NCBI GenBank assembly: GCA_023473795.1
Contig: JAMCYS010000030.1
Coordinates: 1 to 53,878, forward strand
DNA: 53,878 nucleotides
Origin: Chloroflexota bacterium
GTDB taxonomy: Bacteria > Chloroflexota > UBA6077 > FW602-bin22 > JAMCYS01
Reading direction: 5' to 3'
Below the pieces are notes generated by a model. That model ran no database searches. It was not told the DNA's origin and worked only from the letters and a program-made list of their open reading frames with translations. The first letter of the stretch is position 1. Each line of letters opens with the position of its first letter. Positions 15,978 to 53,857 of the stretch are shown here, piece by piece. A program made the translations under genes and the position numbers.

Positions 15978-16000
15978 CCCTGGCCGTGGCGCCCTCTGTC

Positions 16001-17641
16001 CTACCAGTACTTGGAGAAGGTCGGCTCTTCGCGGGTGATGATCTCCAACAGGGCGGGGCGGCTCTCCTGCGTGTACTTGAGCGCCCGCTTGACCGCGGGG
16101 ATGATCTCGTCCGGCTTCTCCACCTTTTCGGCGTAGGCGCCGAGACCCTCGGCTACCTTCGTGTAGTCGCCGCTCAGATAGCGCGTGCCGTACTTCTGCG
16201 TGGCGATCGGCAGGTACTTGTCGTAGCCGCCCAGGCGGGAGTTATTCATCAGGATGGTGAGCGTACCGATCTTGTTCCGCGCCGCCGTCTCGATCTCCAG
16301 GCCGCTCATGCCGAAGGCGGCGTCGCCCATGATGTTGACCACCGTCTTCTCGGGCTTGGCCACTTTGGCGCCCAGGGCCAGCGGCAGGCCGTAGCCAAGG
16401 TGAGTGGACTTGCCCCAGCCGATGTAACTGTTCGGCTCCAGCGCCTGCCAGAACGGCGACATCTGGTCGCGGGGGTTGCCGGCGTCATGGGTGGCGACGG
16501 TGTTTCTCAGGTCGAGGGTAGCCTGGACGTCGCGCATCACCCGATAGGGGCTGATCGGCGTTTCGTCGGCGTCGAGGCGAGGCTGCCACTGGGCCAGCCA
16601 CTCCGCCCGGATGCTCGCCACCTCGCGCACTACCTTGTCGTCGCCCTTCTTGCCATCCCGACCTAGTTGCCGCTTCGCTTCCTCGATGAACTGCTGCAGC
16701 ACCAACTTGGCGTCGCCGAGCAGTGGGTAGGCGGTCGGGTAGTCCTTATTGAAGTCGCGTTCGTCGACGTTCAGCTGAATGCAGGTCTTGCCCCTGGGTA
16801 CCGGCGCGGCGAAGGAGGAGATGGTGAGGCTGGCGCCGATGCCGAAGATCAGGTCGGAATCCACCAGGAAGCGGGCGGCCATCAGTGGGCCGGACAAGCC
16901 GCCGCTACCAAGTGCCAGCGGATGGTCCTCCGGAAAGCCGCTCTTGCCGGGCAGGGTGGTCATCACCGGCACCTGCACCAGCTCCGCGAATTCACGCAGC
17001 TCGTTCCAGGCCTCGGCGTAGAGCACGCCGGCGCCGGCGTGGATCATGGGCTTCTTGGCTGCCAGCAGCGCCTTGAGCGCCGCGCGCATGTCGGCCGGGT
17101 TGGCCATCGACCGCGTGCCCCGCACCGGCCGGTAGGCCAGCGCCGCTTCGTCCACCGGCCCCAGCTGAACGTCCTGCGGCACTTCCAGAATTACCGGGCC
17201 AGGCCGGCCGCTGCGCAGCTGCGCGAAGGCATGGCCCACTAGCTCCGGGATGCGCTGCCCCTGATTGACGCGCGCTGCCCACTTGGACACGTGCTGGTAG
17301 TTCAGCGTGGGGTCGAACGTGGGTAGGAAGCCCAGCCTTTCTTGCCTCTCGCCGCCGGGGAAGGCGAGTATGGGGCTCGAGTCGGCGAAGGCCTGAGCGA
17401 TGCCGCCGAAGGTGTTCTCGGCGCCCGGCCCGTTCTGCACAGCGAGAACGCCAATCCGGCGCCCATTCGTCACCCGCGAGTAGGCGTCGGCCATGCCAAC
17501 TACGGTGCGCTCAGTGCGCGCCATTATCGGCCGGATATCGTACTCCGCAGCCGCTTCGATGATATGGTTGACGGGGAAGCAAAACAGATGCTCCACGCCC
17601 TCGGCTTTAAGCAACTGCGCGATCGCCTGTGCGCCTTTCAT
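16001..17641 (-). CDS. Thiamine-diphosphate enzyme, acetolactate-synthase-like (copy 1)
   Basis: 546 residues with the three domains of the acetolactate synthase/pyruvate oxidase superfamily. The TPP-activating glutamate is Glu44 (ARTERTVVGMADAY). A central FAD/nucleotide-like domain lies at about 185-340. The C-terminal TPP/Mg motif GDAAFGMSGLEIE...LMNN is at about 440-470. The family acts on 2-oxoacids by decarboxylation or carboligation; the substrate is unknown. No ilvH regulatory subunit is near. GGAGG precedes ATG 17641. A paralogue of identical length lies directly upstream, and each has its own promoter. Confidence 0.88.
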   Translation of the reverse strand: MKGAQAIAQLLKAEGVEHLFCFPVNHIIEAAAEYDIRPIMARTERTVVGMADAYSRVTNGRRIGVLAVQNGPGAENTFGGIAQAFADSSPILAFPGGERQERLGFLPTFDPTLNYQHVSKWAARVNQGQRIPELVGHAFAQLRSGRPGPVILEVPQDVQLGPVDEAALAYRPVRGTRSMANPADMRAALKALLAAKKPMIHAGAGVLYAEAWNELREFAELVQVPVMTTLPGKSGFPEDHPLALGSGGLSGPLMAARFLVDSDLIFGIGASLTISSFAAPVPRGKTCIQLNVDERDFNKDYPTAYPLLGDAKLVLQQFIEEAKRQLGRDGKKGDDKVVREVASIRAEWLAQWQPRLDADETPISPYRVMRDVQATLDLRNTVATHDAGNPRDQMSPFWQALEPNSYIGWGKSTHLGYGLPLALGAKVAKPEKTVVNIMGDAAFGMSGLEIETAARNKIGTLTILMNNSRLGGYDKYLPIATQKYGTRYLSGDYTKVAEGLGAYAEKVEKPDEIIPAVKRALKYTQESRPALLEIITREEPTFSKYW

Positions 17642-17762: not shown

Positions 17763-17775
17763 GCCACGCCGCTTC

Positions 17776-19416
17776 CTACCAGTAGATGGAGAGGTTGGGC
17801 TCCTCGTGCGTCAATACCTCGAGCAGGGCGGGCCGTCCCTCCTGCGTCGCTCGCACCGCTCGCTGCACGGCAGGGATGATCTCGCGCGGGCGTTCCACCC
17901 GCTCGCTCCAGGCGCCCAGGCCCTCGGCGACCTTGCTGTAGTTGCCGCTGAGGAAGCGCGTGCCATAGCGCTTGTGGGCTACCGGTAGATGTTTCTCATA
18001 GCCGCCGAGGATGCCGTTGTTCATTACCACGGTGATCGTGCCGATGCTGTAGCGCGCCGCCGTTTCTATGTCCATGCCGATCATGCCGAAGGCCGCGTCG
18101 CCCATTAGGTTCAGCACAGTCTTGTCAGGGCGGGCGAGTTTGGCGCCCATTGCCAGGGCCAGGCCGTAACCCAGGTGGGTGGACTTGCCCCAGCCGATGT
18201 AGCTGTTGGGGACGAGCGCCTTCCAGAAGGGATTCATCTGGTCGCGAGGTGTGCCCGCGTCATGAGTGGCGATGACGTTTCGGGTATCCAGGGCCTGTTG
18301 CAGATCCCAGACGAGCCTGTAGGGACTGATCGGCTCCTCGTCCGAGGTCAGCCGCGGCAGCCACTCGGCGAGCCAGGACTCCTTCGCGGCCTTGACGGCA
18401 CGGGCGACCTGCTCGTCTCCCCGCCGGCCATCGGGCCCCAACTGCCGTTTGACCTCTTCGATCAACTGCCGCAGCACGAGCTTGGCGTTGCCCAGCAGTG
18501 GGAAGGCGGTTACGTAGTCCTTGTTGATGTCCCGCTCGTCGGCCACCACCTGCGCGGCCACCTTGCCCTTGAGAATGGGGGCCTCGTAGTCGGAAACGGT
18601 GAAGCTGGCGCCGATGCCGAAGAGGAAGTCCGAGTCGCGTAGCCATTCCGCCACCGGGCGCGGGCCCGAGCGCCCCCCGCTCCCCAGCGCCAGCGGGTGG
18701 TCCTCAGGGAAGGAGCTCTTGCCCACCATGGTGGTCGTGACCGGCACCTGCACCAGTTCGGCGAACTCGCGCAGCTCGTCCCAGGCCTCGGCGTAGAGCG
18801 CGCCCAACCCCGCCTGGATCAGCGGGCGTTTGGCAGCCAGTAGTGCCGCCACCGCCGCCTGCACCATCTCCGGGTCGGCTAGCGAGCGCACCGGCTTGAC
18901 GGGGCTGTAGTGCAGCGCGTCATCCGGCAGCTCGGCCGCGGTGACGTCCAGGGGCAGTTCGAGCAGCACGGGGCCCGGCCGGCCCGCCCGCAAGTAGGTG
19001 TAAGCCCGGCGGAAGAACTCGGGGATGCGGCCGACCTCGTTGATCCGCGCCGCCCACTTCGTGATGTACTGGTAGTTGCGGGCGGCGTCGAAGCTGGGTT
19101 CCACTTCCCAGCGGTTGGCCGGAACCCCACCCGGCAACACCAGCAGGGGCGTGCCGTCGGAGAAGGCCTGAGCCACGCCGCCGAAGGTATTCTCTACGCC
19201 GGGGCCGTGTTGCACGGCCACCACCGCGTTGCGGCGGCCGTTGTTGACTCTGGTGTAGCCGTCGGCCATGCCCACGGCGGTGCGTTCGGTGCGGGCCATG
19301 ATGGGCTTGATTTCGATTTCCGCGCCGGCTTCGATCACGACGTTGGCCGGGAAGCAGAAGGTGTACTCTGTGCCCTCGGACTTGAGAATCTGGGCAATCG
19401 CCCTGGCACCCTTCAT
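17776..19416 (-). CDS. Thiamine-diphosphate enzyme, acetolactate-synthase-like (copy 2)
   Basis: 546 residues from ATG 19416 (AAGGAGG upstream; a longer frame begins at 19455 without a good site). It is collinear with copy 1 from MKGARAIAQILKSEG to the final YW: Glu44 in ARTERTAVGMADGY and GDAAFGMIGMDIE...VMNN are retained. Tandem duplication is evident, but side chains around the presumed substrate loops differ, so the two may have different substrates or form a heteromer. Family knowledge gives only 2-oxoacid chemistry. Confidence 0.88.
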   Translation of the reverse strand: MKGARAIAQILKSEGTEYTFCFPANVVIEAGAEIEIKPIMARTERTAVGMADGYTRVNNGRRNAVVAVQHGPGVENTFGGVAQAFSDGTPLLVLPGGVPANRWEVEPSFDAARNYQYITKWAARINEVGRIPEFFRRAYTYLRAGRPGPVLLELPLDVTAAELPDDALHYSPVKPVRSLADPEMVQAAVAALLAAKRPLIQAGLGALYAEAWDELREFAELVQVPVTTTMVGKSSFPEDHPLALGSGGRSGPRPVAEWLRDSDFLFGIGASFTVSDYEAPILKGKVAAQVVADERDINKDYVTAFPLLGNAKLVLRQLIEEVKRQLGPDGRRGDEQVARAVKAAKESWLAEWLPRLTSDEEPISPYRLVWDLQQALDTRNVIATHDAGTPRDQMNPFWKALVPNSYIGWGKSTHLGYGLALAMGAKLARPDKTVLNLMGDAAFGMIGMDIETAARYSIGTITVVMNNGILGGYEKHLPVAHKRYGTRFLSGNYSKVAEGLGAWSERVERPREIIPAVQRAVRATQEGRPALLEVLTHEEPNLSIYW

Positions 19417-19517
19417 GGGTCTACCTCCTTGTGCTCTAGCGGGGTCATTCGGCACGGCAGGGGTCGTCTTGAGCCTTGCCGGGGAGGAGCGGGCAGTTGG
19501 CCGCCGCGCTCAGCTCA

Positions 19518-30666: not shown

Positions 30667-30920
30667 CTGAAACGTTTGGTGTGCGTTAGACCCGTTGGGC
30701 AGGAATGCGAGAGTGATGGGGAGGGTTCGGGTCGTAGCGCGCGGGCCATGTCCCCCGACAGGGGGGTCGCCAACCAGGGGTGGCATCCCGCGCGGTCCGA
30801 GTAAAGGCCAGACCGCGGGGCACGCCCCCCTGGCGGAGGGTGGAAGGCCCCGCGCTACGACCCATTACCCCAACCACAGGTGCCAAGCAGCGGCACTTTT
30901 CCTAATTCACACCAAACGTT
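30667..30920. repeat. MITE-like inverted-repeat element, copy 1
   Basis: Bounded by a 13-bp perfect terminal inverted repeat, AACGTTTGGTGTG (30671-30683) and its complement (30908-30920). Inside, arms containing GTCGTAGCGCG (from 30731) and CGCGCTACGAC (to 30861) can pair. It shares the 17-mer CTGAAACGTTTGGTGTG with 37241-37257, and its interior arms recur there in reverse orientation. It fills most of the 457-base gap before the radical-SAM gene. No transposase is present. Confidence 0.85.
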
Positions 30921-31008: not shown

Positions 31009-31037
31009 TGGACCGGCGCCCGCCGATGGGCTAGAAT
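31009..31037 (+). promoter_or_regulatory. Candidate promoter of the radical-SAM gene
   Basis: TGGACC (31009-31014), 17 bases, TAGAAT (31032-31037), about 44 bases before the GTG start. The -35 box is only a partial match. Confidence 0.5.
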
Positions 31038-31081: not shown

Positions 31082-32677
31082 GTGCTGGACGTCCTGTTTG
31101 TCGGCGCAGAGAGTCAGGAAAACCTCGGCATCCGATATCTCGTCTCTGTGCTGCGCCAGCAAGGCTACAGCGCCGAAATCGCCCGTTTCGAGGGGCCCGC
31201 CGACGCCCCGGCGGTGCTCGCCACGATTGCCCAGAGACAGCCACGCCTCGTGGGCCTTTCCGTCATCTTCCAGTTCTCTGCCGGCGATTTCCTCGCCCTG
31301 GCGGCGAGCCTGCGAGCCGGGGGCTACGTCGGGCTGATCGCGTTGGGCGGTCACTTCCCCAGTTTCGAGTACGAGGCGCTGCTGCGGGACGAGCCGGCGG
31401 TCGATCTTGTCGTGCGTTTCGAGGGCGAAGAGACCGTGCTGGACCTGCTGCGCCATCTCGACCGCCACAATACCTGGGCCGATATTCGCGGGCTCGCCTT
31501 CCGTCACGGCTCCGAGGTGGTGACCACGCCCGCCCGCCCTCTCCTGGCCGACCTCGACCGCCTGCCTTTCCCGGCGCGCGACGGCGGCGTGAAAGACCAT
31601 CTGGGGGTACGCTTCGCCGCCCTTCTCGGCAGCCGCGGCTGTTTCCACAACTGCGCCTTCTGCAGCATCGGTGCCTTCTACCACCGGCCCGGCGGCTCGC
31701 CCCAGCGAATGCGCTCCGTGCGCAATCTGCTGGACGAGATGCAGCAACTGCACGACGACTGGGGGGTTGACCTGTACATCTTCAACGACGACGAGTTCTT
31801 CGACCTGCGGCCCGCCTATCGCCAGACGCAGATCGATCAGCTGCTGAACGAGCTGTCGCGGCGGCAGCTCCGCCCCAAGCTCTTCGTCAAGTGCCGGGCC
31901 AGCGACGTCGACCACGCTACGTTCGCCCGCCTGCGCGACGCCGGCCTGGTGCGTGCCTACGTGGGCATCGAGAGCGGGGCCAGCCACTCGCTCGAGGTTT
32001 TCGGCAAGAAGACCACCGTGTCCGAGAACCGGGCCGCCGTGGCCACGCTCAAGCAGTTGGGGATTCTCGCTGACTTCAACCTGTTGATGTTCAACCCCTA
32101 TACGACGTTGGCCGACGTCGAGGACGATCTACAGTTCGTGGAGGACATGGCCGCCGACGGCTCGGTGCCGGTGAGCATCGCCCGGGTCGAGATCTACTCC
32201 GGCACGCCCCTGCAGGGACGCCTGGGCCAGGAGGGTCGTCTGCTGGGCAACTACCGTGCCTGGGACTATCAGATCGCCGACCCGGCCGTGGAGCTGCTCC
32301 TCCGCCAGGTGCTGGCGGCGATGCAGCGGCGCAACTACCATCCCGAAGGCCTGAGCAAGACGGCGATTCAGGCGTACTACGAACTGCTCATCTACCGGCA
32401 CTTCTACCCAGACCACTACGACGAGGCGCTGGCGCGCGAACTGGCGGCTATCGTCGCCCGGCTAAACCGGCACTCGGTCGCCCTGATCCGCCGGCTGGCG
32501 CGCTGGGCGGGTAAGGGGGAGTTCTACGACCAGACGGAGGTCAACCGGCGCACCATCGCCGCCGCTCTCGAGACGGGGCGGGTAGACGCGGAACTGGAGG
32601 CGCGCCTGCGGCGCTGGCGCCAGCGCCTGCACGGGCGCGTGGCGAGGCTGCGTCCGCCCGTGTCGGTCGCCACCTAG
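31082..32677 (+). CDS. B12-binding-domain radical SAM enzyme
   Basis: 531 residues from GTG 31082 (GGGGAGG upstream). The N-terminus (about 1-130) is a cobalamin-binding-like Rossmann domain without the DxHxxG motif, as in many B12-radical-SAM enzymes. The radical-SAM barrel has the 4Fe-4S motif CFHNCAFC (Cys187, Cys191, Cys194). It continues with the SAM-site segment DDDEFF-like NDDEFFD and YVGIESGA. A helical C-terminal region (about 390-531) follows. Family members do methylations, ring contractions and peptide modifications. The next gene starts nine bases downstream and is the likely functional partner. Confidence 0.88.
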   Translation: MLDVLFVGAESQENLGIRYLVSVLRQQGYSAEIARFEGPADAPAVLATIAQRQPRLVGLSVIFQFSAGDFLALAASLRAGGYVGLIALGGHFPSFEYEALLRDEPAVDLVVRFEGEETVLDLLRHLDRHNTWADIRGLAFRHGSEVVTTPARPLLADLDRLPFPARDGGVKDHLGVRFAALLGSRGCFHNCAFCSIGAFYHRPGGSPQRMRSVRNLLDEMQQLHDDWGVDLYIFNDDEFFDLRPAYRQTQIDQLLNELSRRQLRPKLFVKCRASDVDHATFARLRDAGLVRAYVGIESGASHSLEVFGKKTTVSENRAAVATLKQLGILADFNLLMFNPYTTLADVEDDLQFVEDMAADGSVPVSIARVEIYSGTPLQGRLGQEGRLLGNYRAWDYQIADPAVELLLRQVLAAMQRRNYHPEGLSKTAIQAYYELLIYRHFYPDHYDEALARELAAIVARLNRHSVALIRRLARWAGKGEFYDQTEVNRRTIAAALETGRVDAELEARLRRWRQRLHGRVARLRPPVSVAT

Positions 32678-32686
32678 GAGGAGGCA

Positions 32687-33301
32687 ATGGGCAAGAGGAA
32701 GAAGGCCGGCCTGACGATGGCGGCGCTGCTGCTCAGCGAGACCGCCGCCTGTGTGCCGATTTGCGATCCCGTGCCGCCGCCACCTTTTCCCACCTCTATC
32801 GCCCAGACGGCCACCGCGGGCGCTGAGGCGTCGGCTACTGCCCGACCGACGTCGCCACGGGCGACCCCCAGCCCGAACCAGGGTACGCCGGGCCAGCCGC
32901 CGCCAATCTGCGATCCCGTCCCGCCCCCACCCTACCTCACGGCCGCGGCGGCGACCCGCGCCGCGACGGCTCCCACGCCCACTCGCACCCCTACGCCCTC
33001 GGGGACCGCGCTGCCCAGAACGTCGGCGACGCAGAAGCCGGATTTGGCAACTCTGCCGCTGCAGAGGCGGCTGACGCTGAGGATCTTGCCGGTCAAGGGA
33101 GAGCGCTTCGTCTACACGGTGGAGGCCAATTTCCCTACTGGACAAGTTACCTGGCTAGCGTCCGGTGGGGTCCTGGAGCAATGGGGAGCGGGCGTACAGT
33201 GGCTGCCGCCGCCACGCCCGGGTCGCTATCTCATCCAGGCCGTGGTCGACGCCGGGCCGCTGGGCGTGGCCGTCGATTCGCTGGCGGTGACCTCGCTATA
33301 G
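32687..33301 (+). CDS. Pro/Thr-rich exported protein with duplicated ICDPVPPPP motif
   Basis: 204 residues; AGGAGG overlaps the end of the radical-SAM gene. A Lys/Arg-rich start and short hydrophobic stretch lead to TAAC (Cys22), a weak lipobox. The nonapeptide ICDPVPPPP occurs twice (25-33 and 74-82), each followed by an aromatic residue, Phe or Tyr. The linkers are Thr/Pro/Ala-rich (about 35-70 and 84-115). The C-terminal 85 residues look beta-rich. Close coupling to a B12-radical-SAM gene suggests it is that enzyme's substrate, perhaps modified at the Cys-Asp-Pro motifs. That is inference; a plain lipoprotein is the alternative. Confidence 0.75.
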   Translation: MGKRKKAGLTMAALLLSETAACVPICDPVPPPPFPTSIAQTATAGAEASATARPTSPRATPSPNQGTPGQPPPICDPVPPPPYLTAAAATRAATAPTPTRTPTPSGTALPRTSATQKPDLATLPLQRRLTLRILPVKGERFVYTVEANFPTGQVTWLASGGVLEQWGAGVQWLPPPRPGRYLIQAVVDAGPLGVAVDSLAVTSL

Positions 33302-33308
33302 ACGGAGC

Positions 33309-33899
33309 TCAGCTCTCGATGGAGCGGCCGACGAGCACGGGCACCGATGGCTTGCCTAAGCCAACTGTGTCTTGGGGCACGAGCCCGACTGCGTAGCCAC
33401 ACACGTAGACCTTAGCGCCCGCCTTGATGGCGCCAACGCTGCCGAGGTGCGTGTAGTTCAGACGCGTGCCATCTTCGGCCACCAGCAGTAGTTCGCCAAC
33501 CTGGTCGACACCCAAGTCACGCGCCGTTTGCCCGCCGTGCGGCAGGTCCTGGGCGCGTAGCACCTGGCCGCGCAGACGCAGCGGCTTGCCGTAGTAGTCC
33601 CAAGGGGCTTTGGCGAGTGCCGACGGGGTGACGTTGTCCGCCGCCTGCCGCAACTTCGTCGGGTCGGCTGTTTTGAGGAAGGCCGCTACCAAACGGGCAT
33701 TGCCATTGCTGTTCGCGTTGGGGTCCTGGGCGTTCCACTTGATGGGGCCAAATGAAATGGCAGTGCCCGCCCGGGCTGGCGGCGCTGGGGCGGCAGGGGT
33801 GGATGTGGGTGGCGAGCCGGCGAGGGGCGAGGCGCACGCGGACGTGCCCAAGGCACAGACCAGCATAACCGCGACTAACGCGCTCCCCTTGCCGCCCAT
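33309..33899 (-). CDS. Putative lipoprotein with OB-fold-like domain
   Basis: 196 residues from ATG 33899 (AAAGGG upstream; an earlier GTG at 33929 lacks a site). The N-terminal signal ends at TSAC, a plausible lipobox, followed by a Pro/Ala/Thr linker. The domain WDYYGKPLRLRGQVLRA...GELLLVAEDG...GAKVYVCGYAVGL resembles the strand pattern of OB-fold tRNA_anti-like domains in secreted proteins. It converges on the CDPVPPPP protein gene with only 7 bases between stops. Function is unknown. Confidence 0.7.
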   Translation of the reverse strand: MGGKGSALVAVMLVCALGTSACASPLAGSPPTSTPAAPAPPARAGTAISFGPIKWNAQDPNANSNGNARLVAAFLKTADPTKLRQAADNVTPSALAKAPWDYYGKPLRLRGQVLRAQDLPHGGQTARDLGVDQVGELLLVAEDGTRLNYTHLGSVGAIKAGAKVYVCGYAVGLVPQDTVGLGKPSVPVLVGRSIES

Positions 33900-34145
33900 C
33901 GCCCCGCCCTTTCTAGCGCGGTTGGACACGGAACCGAGTGGGGGACTGGAAGGCCGGCCTCCGGCAAGGCGCTGCTCTTCTCGCTACGCAGTATACCAGG
34001 TGCCAGGCAAAAAGGAAGTCCTCCACCGGGAGAGCTGGCGTCCCGCTGGTAGCGGCCCGTCAGTGCGTGTGGGTGACCGGGTCCGCGCGCTCGTCTACCC
34101 ATGGCGAGGCGTTGGCTATTGGCAGGCCGCGAGGAAGGTTCCGTC

Positions 34146-37170: not shown

Positions 37171-37240
37171 TGGCTAGTAACGACCTCCGTATCTACTCAA
37201 GCGCTAGTTGGCCCTGGCGGCGCGGCCGGCAGCAAGACGG

Positions 37241-37394
37241 CTGAAACGTTTGGTGTGAAGTTGGGGCAATAGGTCGTAGCGCGGGGCCTCGTGCCCCGCG
37301 GCGTGGCCTTCTGTCGGACCACGCGGGACATGGCCCGCGCGCTACGGCCAGAACGCTCCTATCCCTGCCCTACAGGGCTTACTCACACCAAAAC
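37241..37394. repeat. MITE-like inverted-repeat element, copy 2
   Basis: It begins with the same 17-mer as copy 1 (CTGAAACGTTTGGTGTG) and ends in an imperfect inverse (CACACCAAAAC, 37384-37394). Interior segments match copy 1 but inverted: GGTCGTAGCGCGGGGCC (37272-37288) is the exact complement of the right arm of copy 1, and 37325-37348 matches its left arm at 22 of 24 bases. It lies in the 421-base gap between the Ldh2-type gene and iolB; the rest of that gap holds the iolB promoter. Confidence 0.82.
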
Positions 37395-38441: not shown

Positions 38442-38494
38442 GCCAATGCCAGAACGGGCGCTAGCATCAAGCTAGCGCCCGTTCTGGCATTGGC
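38442..38494. terminator. 24-bp perfect-stem hairpin between convergent genes
   Basis: A 24-bp perfect stem (38442-38465 with 38471-38494) and a 5-nt loop, ATCAA. It separates iolB (stop 38428) from the convergent membrane-protein gene (stop 38558). The stem is unusually long and has no T-run on either side, so it may be a bidirectional terminator or a small palindromic repeat. Confidence 0.75.
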
Positions 38495-52794: not shown

Positions 52795-53756
52795 TTGCGG
52801 GCTACGCTGTTCTACGCGCGCAACGGCCACTTGCAGCGCACGGATGACGCCGCGCAAATCGACGCCGTGCTCGAGGCCGGGACCGGCCGTTACTGGTTGG
52901 ACCTAGAGTCGTTTGGCGCCGAGGACCAGGAGTGGCTCGCCCGACGCTTCAAGTTCCACCCCCTGGCCGTGGCCGATTTGCTGCAACCGAACTTCCGCCC
53001 TCGGTTCGAGGAATACGAGGGCCATCTCTTTCTCATCGCCCACTGGATCAAGATCGAACAGCGGGAACTCACCGCCCACGAAATCGAGTGTTTTCTCACT
53101 CAAGAATATCTCGTGACTGTCCACGGGAGTGCCGATGCCCTCGTCGAACGCGTGCGCAAGACGGTGGAGGGAGACAATGCCGGTCTGACCCGAGGCGCTG
53201 ACCGCGTACTGTACCTCATTCTGGACGCCGTCGCCGACAGTTTTTTCGACGCGACCGACTTTGTCGACGATCGGTCGACGATCTCGAGGCTGGCGTGCTG
53301 GACGCTCCCGATCGAGGTACCCTGGACCAGATCTTCGGCTTGCGCCGCGGGTTGGCGCTGATGCGCCGCTACTCCAGCCCCTTGCGCGACGCCATTAACG
53401 CCCTGATGGGGCACGAGGGAGGCTACGTTCACCGGGGCAACGCCATCTACTTCCGCGACGTGCACAATCTCATGGTTACGGTCCACGAGATGGTAGACAA
53501 CCAGCGCGACCTGACCACGGGCGTGCTGGACGTGTATCTGTCCAGCACCTCTAATCGCTTGAACGACGTGGTGAAGCGGTTGACGATCGTGGCCAATATC
53601 TTCCTACCTATCAGTTTCGTGGCCGGCTTTTTCGGCACCAACTTCGTTTCTCTCATTCCCTATGACAATACGGTCGTGTTCGTGGTCTTTCTAGCCACGC
53701 TGGTGCTGGCTCCGGTCGGCATGTTGATTTGGTTTTGGCGCCTGGGCTGGCTCTAG
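52795..53756 (+). pseudogene. corA: CorA-type magnesium/divalent metal channel, frameshifted
   Basis: Two frames together form one CorA-like protein of about 320 residues. The first reads from TTG 52795 to about 53274 (LFYARNGHLQR...DSFFDATDFVDDR). The second continues with DDLEAGVLDAPDRGTL to 53756, ending in two membrane helices. One base is missing between 53274 and 53275: CGG-(A)TC-GAC would restore the frame. The conserved GMN motif at the end of helix 1 reads GTN (FFGTNF). No slippery heptamer is present, so mutation or base-call error is likelier than programmed frameshifting. The stop codon lies in the terminal repeat. Confidence 0.87.
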
Positions 53757-53857
53757 TGCACGAACAGATGACCTCTTCGGGGATCGTCGGACCGAGGGAC
53801 GTTGGCAGCCGCCCATCAGGGACGGTGATCCGCGCATCTGTGGACAACGGGCATTAC
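53753..53857. repeat. Right arm of 105-bp perfect inverted repeat
   Basis: The exact reverse complement of bases 1-105. It begins at the last codons of corA (its TAG is at 53754-53756) and continues into 21 unmatched bases at the window edge. No gene is encoded. Confidence 0.95.

Follow-up and report, generated by a model that had tools for sequence, protein, structure and literature searches.

The window, i.e., the whole stretch of 53,878 nucleotides analysed here, corresponds to contig 38 of a 4.4-Mb genome; the genomes compared included no other member of the same family. Its plus strand carries a gene for a B12-binding radical-SAM enzyme (ORF 31082–32677, 531 aa, GTG start, TAG stop) followed by a gene for a predicted lipoprotein with ICDP repeats (ORF 32687–33301, 204 aa, ATG start). 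The initial annotation had placed the radical-SAM stop nine bases ahead of the next start and this was borne out (32678–32686, inside TAGGAGGAGGCAATG); a strong ribosome-binding site, GGAGGAGG, lies ahead of the lipoprotein start. A promoter-like site, TGGACC-17-TAGAAT (31009–31037, plus strand), is located 5' of the radical-SAM gene; it was found in a consensus scan, which is not evidence of function, and is the sole such site in the scanned stretch (one found vs. 0.1 expected).

Anatomy of the enzyme and the motif protein

The enzyme had been annotated as a B12-type radical-SAM protein and both Pfam domains are indeed above cut-off, i.e., the B12-binding domain at residues 13–122 (4.8e-16, 59.1 bits, cut-off 32.1) and the Radical_SAM domain at residues 184–353 (3.2e-15, 57.1 bits, cut-off 29.5). 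The translation reads a CxxxCxxC cluster motif (Cys187, Cys191, and Cys194; 31640–31663, plus strand), and all three cysteines are invariant in the only close homologue (see below). Together the two domains and the motif assign the predicted protein to the B12-dependent radical-SAM enzymes. The best NCBIfam match is BchE with 149.5 bits, far under the cut-off of 481, followed by ApyD (103.6, cut-off 750), HpnJ (87), HpnR (82), TIGR04014 (66.9, cut-off 360), and rSAM_ocin_1 (61.8, cut-off 282); no named B12-dependent radical-SAM family reached its cut-off among the families listed, and the homologue is likewise below the NCBIfam cut-offs among the matches listed at E 1e-15. A fold search with a low-confidence model of the enzyme (mean pLDDT 58), in which the C-terminal region is helical, returned OxsB, MgmA, TokK, AprD4, and CysS, and the closest solved sequences in a sequence search were OxsB and TokK. 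These profile and fold matches fix the superfamily of the enzyme, not its substrate. Pfam matches only the B12-binding and Radical_SAM domains and recognises no RRE-type domain.

The predicted lipoprotein starts with a basic and hydrophobic putative signal sequence (MGKRKK...AALLLSETAAC) that leads to a predicted lipobox cysteine, Cys22, in TAAC (residues 19–22; cysteine at 32750–32752, plus strand). This was read by eye; Thr at position -3 is unusual, the neighbouring gene has TSAC and the homologue reads ...STLAC at the same place. The motif ICDPVPPPP is present twice on the plus strand, at residues 25–33 (32759–32785) and 74–82 (32906–32932), each copy directly followed by an aromatic residue (F and Y, respectively), as the initial annotation had it, and set in Thr/Pro/Ala-rich linkers. 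A C-terminal domain of beta-strands, probably BiPBP_C/Ig-like, is placed at about residues 122–203 (33050–33295, plus strand) from a weak Pfam match, homology and a low-confidence structure model (mean pLDDT 46, used for strand placement only). Its likeness to BiPBP_C (PF06832; E 0.0018, 18.5 bits, under the cut-off of 26.8) and to PKD/Ig-like surface-protein domains is weak, and the homologue has no Pfam match. Armadillo-repeat matches of the same domain were set aside as short matches to designed proteins.

The genes flanking the pair are mostly those of ordinary metabolism (e.g., transketolase-like, dehydrogenase, SDR, and aldolase-like ORFs). It had been suggested that the pair is bracketed by two related MITE-like repeats. 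Two such elements exist, one at 30671–30920 with 19-nt terminal inverted repeats (89%) and a related, diverged one at about 37239–37392. The former is a member of a dispersed family and matches several further sites of the genome, and the latter is separated from the end of the pair by 3.9 kb that include five more ORFs; the repeats therefore define no unit, and a cassette carried by them was rejected. A second predicted lipoprotein, proline-rich and convergent with the ICDP lipoprotein gene, is encoded at 33309–33929 on the minus strand; it has no Pfam or NCBIfam match and one weak match (E 1.2e-4) in 60 related genomes. Elsewhere in the window a tandem duplication (15999–17560 and 17774–19335; 71% DNA identity across about 1.6 kb) covers two minus-strand ORFs with similar starts (16001–17641 and 17776–19455). 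Positions 1–105 are an exact inverted match of 53753–53857 (105 bases), perhaps the repeat that ended the assembly, and a 53-base near-perfect palindrome (94%) is located just past an ORF end at 38442–38494.

Distribution in the phylum and conservation of the motif

The survey covered 400 genomes drawn from one phylum, Chloroflexota. At a threshold of E below 1e-60 a close relative of the enzyme was found in one other genome (E 4.5e-156, 50% identity), Chloroflexi bacterium isolate Modern_marine_rock_biofilm.mb.101 (G038 in the following). G038, a fragmented MAG whose contamination is estimated at 8%, belongs to a different class from the window genome and is the only genome of its class in the sample. 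A profile built from the two enzymes and run on 201 genomes scored these same two at 1073 (window) and 1106 bits (G038) and the next match at only 164 bits, and the two enzymes thus form a discrete subfamily; a scan of the genome contigs with two narrow peptide patterns of the enzyme returned the G038 record alone. The sole strong match to the lipoprotein in the 400 genomes was also in G038 (1.5e-10, 40%). The homologue has 186 aa and three copies of ICDPPPP, and reads ...STLACSVCRPFIICDPPPPTPTLMICDPPPPSPT...SIIICDPPPPSPT.... The C-terminal domains of the two lipoproteins share 44% identity over 82 residues, linker excluded, and the linkers between the motif copies align poorly; the motif itself is the retained part of the linker.

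The substitutions between motif copies point in the same direction. The two ICDPVPPPP copies differ at four of 27 bases, all of them third positions and all silent, and a recent duplication is therefore not the explanation. When four changes were placed at random the peptide was preserved in 0.3% of the trials, a figure generous to the claim as the copies were noticed for being identical. The ICDPPPP copies in G038 also differ only at silent positions. Because the differences are silent only, and because three copies with silent-only differences are found in a homologue from another class, the repeat goes beyond chance, and the coding sequences indicate selection on the motif.

More than one ICDPxPP per gene was seen only in the window genome and in G038. 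Single matches, seen in 16 other genomes and at one further site of the window genome, were discarded as they fall in ORFs unlike the lipoprotein and without a second copy. Matches to CDP[hydrophobic]PPP outside the window in the phylum sample were short, antisense or unrelated ORFs, e.g., CDPVPPP in a P-type ATPase-like frame and in a dehydrogenase-like frame, and were rejected as well. So were weak lipoprotein matches in eight other genomes, which were SH3-like, Ig/PKD-like or of low complexity where the reading frame was recovered. The plasmids and viral contigs searched held no relative of the lipoprotein and no close relative of the enzyme, distant relatives of the enzyme in genome G003 are found in a glycan-cluster-like setting without a Cys-Pro repeat protein, and the motif was not mentioned in the literature searched.

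The initial annotation had proposed co-occurrence as a check and a motif protein that is widespread without a radical-SAM neighbour as a refutation. In the 400 genomes the enzyme and the repeat lipoprotein are both present in G038 and in no other sampled genome besides the window's own, and a widespread motif without the enzyme was not seen, here at the level of genomes rather than of neighbouring genes. Given both genes in the window genome, the chance that the sole other carriers coincide is about 1 in 399 if the two are independent. Two accessory genes from the vicinity of the pair, combined into one control query, gave no match in G038, and general gene sharing is thus not the reason for the co-occurrence. 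From two genomes, the sequences support that enzyme and motif protein are linked at the genome level.

The two genes are not adjacent in G038. The enzyme gene is located on contig C283, where it follows a TMEM260-like gene, and the lipoprotein gene is located on contig C562, ahead of an xdhC-like gene; the G038 flanks also hold uvrB and a cupin-like ORF. Two features argue for the contigs belonging together, i.e., a promoter-like sequence, CTGACACCGGCGTTT..GTGTGGTATAAT, present on both and a similar tetranucleotide usage, although the correlation for the latter (0.958) is equalled or exceeded between some different genomes. The promoter-like sequence is located at L021 ~6174 and L032 ~2353 (both minus strand), ahead of the gene that follows the radical-SAM gene and ahead of the lipoprotein gene. 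The TMEM260-like gene directly upstream of the radical-SAM gene (L021:7873–9909, minus strand) belongs to the protein O-mannosyltransferase family and has TPRs; it may be of interest because the candidate substrate is rich in Thr and Pro.

A possible enzyme and its dedicated substrate

The likeliest of the explanations weighed is that the lipoprotein is the dedicated substrate of the radical-SAM enzyme, a reading to which we give a probability of about 0.4. The B12-dependent enzyme would work in the cytoplasm on the pre-lipoprotein, whose unstructured linker carries the ICDP(V/P)PPP motifs, and would alter Pro, Asp or Cys in them; C-methylation or some other radical reaction is most plausible. 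This modification would precede export, after which a lipid would be attached to Cys22 and the protein, Ig-like C-terminal domain included, would be displayed. The initial annotation expected a post-translational modification system. The part of this that links the enzyme to the motif protein stands, by co-occurrence and selection on the motif, and modification of the motif by the enzyme, which we infer, is plausible. The nine-base gap and the strong ribosome-binding site also speak for this reading. In both genomes the motif is absent from all other convincing proteins, as would be expected of a dedicated substrate. We tentatively propose that a dedicated enzyme of this kind modifies an exported lipoprotein at the ICDP(V/P)PPP motifs repeated in its stalk; surface-protein modification of such kind is not described in the literature and families searched. 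If true, B12-dependent radical-SAM chemistry on peptides would reach beyond short natural-product precursors and include a surface protein that is lipidated and has a repeated recognition motif. The two genes would form a compact system where enzyme, substrate, and site are directly testable, and the ICDPxPPP repeats would be a sequence handle for further examples.

Precedents exist for parts of this proposal. The class B radical-SAM C-methyltransferases of RiPPs (bottromycin BotRMT, PoyC, TsrM, and ApyD) have the same domain order as the window enzyme, i.e., an N-terminal cobalamin-binding domain followed by a CxxxCxxC radical-SAM domain, and their known substrates are peptide residues, proline included (PMC11285071, PMC10635010). 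Proline is C-methylated by BotRMT3 in bottromycin (PMC11285071) and tyrosine by ApyD (PMC10635010). The window enzyme is however near no curated cut-off for these enzymes, ApyD has an RRE of the type that is not recognised here, and the RiPP enzymes act on short precursors whereas the candidate substrate is a predicted lipoprotein. A B12-dependent radical-SAM enzyme that does act on a full-size protein is the methyl-coenzyme M reductase glutamine C-methyltransferase (TIGR04014; MgmA, PDB 9ccb). It was found with the window enzyme by profile, sequence, and fold searches, but the profile score is far short of its cut-off and substrate and setting are different. Counted against the substrate reading are the separate location of the genes in G038, their presence in two genomes only, the absence of a recognised RRE-type domain, and nearest B12-dependent radical-SAM profiles (BchE, HpnJ, and HpnR) that mostly act on small molecules or lipids.

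The alternative that survives best, although in our view unlikely, is that the radical-SAM gene is a chance neighbour and that the two proteins are not functionally linked. The ICDPxPPP repeats could then serve the lipoprotein itself, e.g., by exposing cysteines in a proline-rich stalk for disulfide formation or metal binding. Selection on the motif needs no enzyme, the two G038 genes are found on different contigs, and a proline-rich predicted lipoprotein is nothing unusual in the window genome, where the next gene encodes another. Against this stands that both rare genes, and not the neighbouring genes, are found in the same two of 400 genomes.

Such co-occurrence without adjacency would also fit a shared pathway. 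The enzyme would then produce or modify a small molecule or lipid and the lipoprotein would, e.g., bind the product at the surface, so that the two are co-selected without being enzyme and substrate. The substrates of BchE, HpnJ, and HpnR are porphyrin or hopanoids, and these three are among the top-scoring curated profiles, all far under cut-off; the closest solved sequences, OxsB and TokK, act on small molecules as well. This explanation is doubtful, and more so than a chance neighbour, as no other pathway gene is common to the two loci: the window flanks are like those of sugar-acid catabolism, those in G038 are the uvrB, TMEM260-like, and cupin-like ORFs, and no porphyrin or hopanoid pathway genes adjoin the window pair. 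It also leaves the repeated motif unexplained.

Returning to the enzyme and its dedicated substrate, modification of a surface protein fits the signal sequence, the lipobox and the folded C-terminal domain better than does a RiPP precursor. It is very improbable that the linker is a multi-core precursor from which modified ICDP cores are released by proteolysis; identical short motifs are repeated beside a B12-dependent radical-SAM gene, and on a Burkholderia stagnalis plasmid (L079:1873–7398) a distant relative (30%) is located among three radical-SAM genes, together with an insulinase-family gene and a 55-aa ORF, possibly a RiPP cluster, but both predicted lipoproteins, with 204 and 186 aa, have an apparent export signal of their own and a conserved C-terminal domain rather than a short leader and core, no protease, RRE or transporter gene was seen beside either copy, and the genes are non-adjacent in G038.
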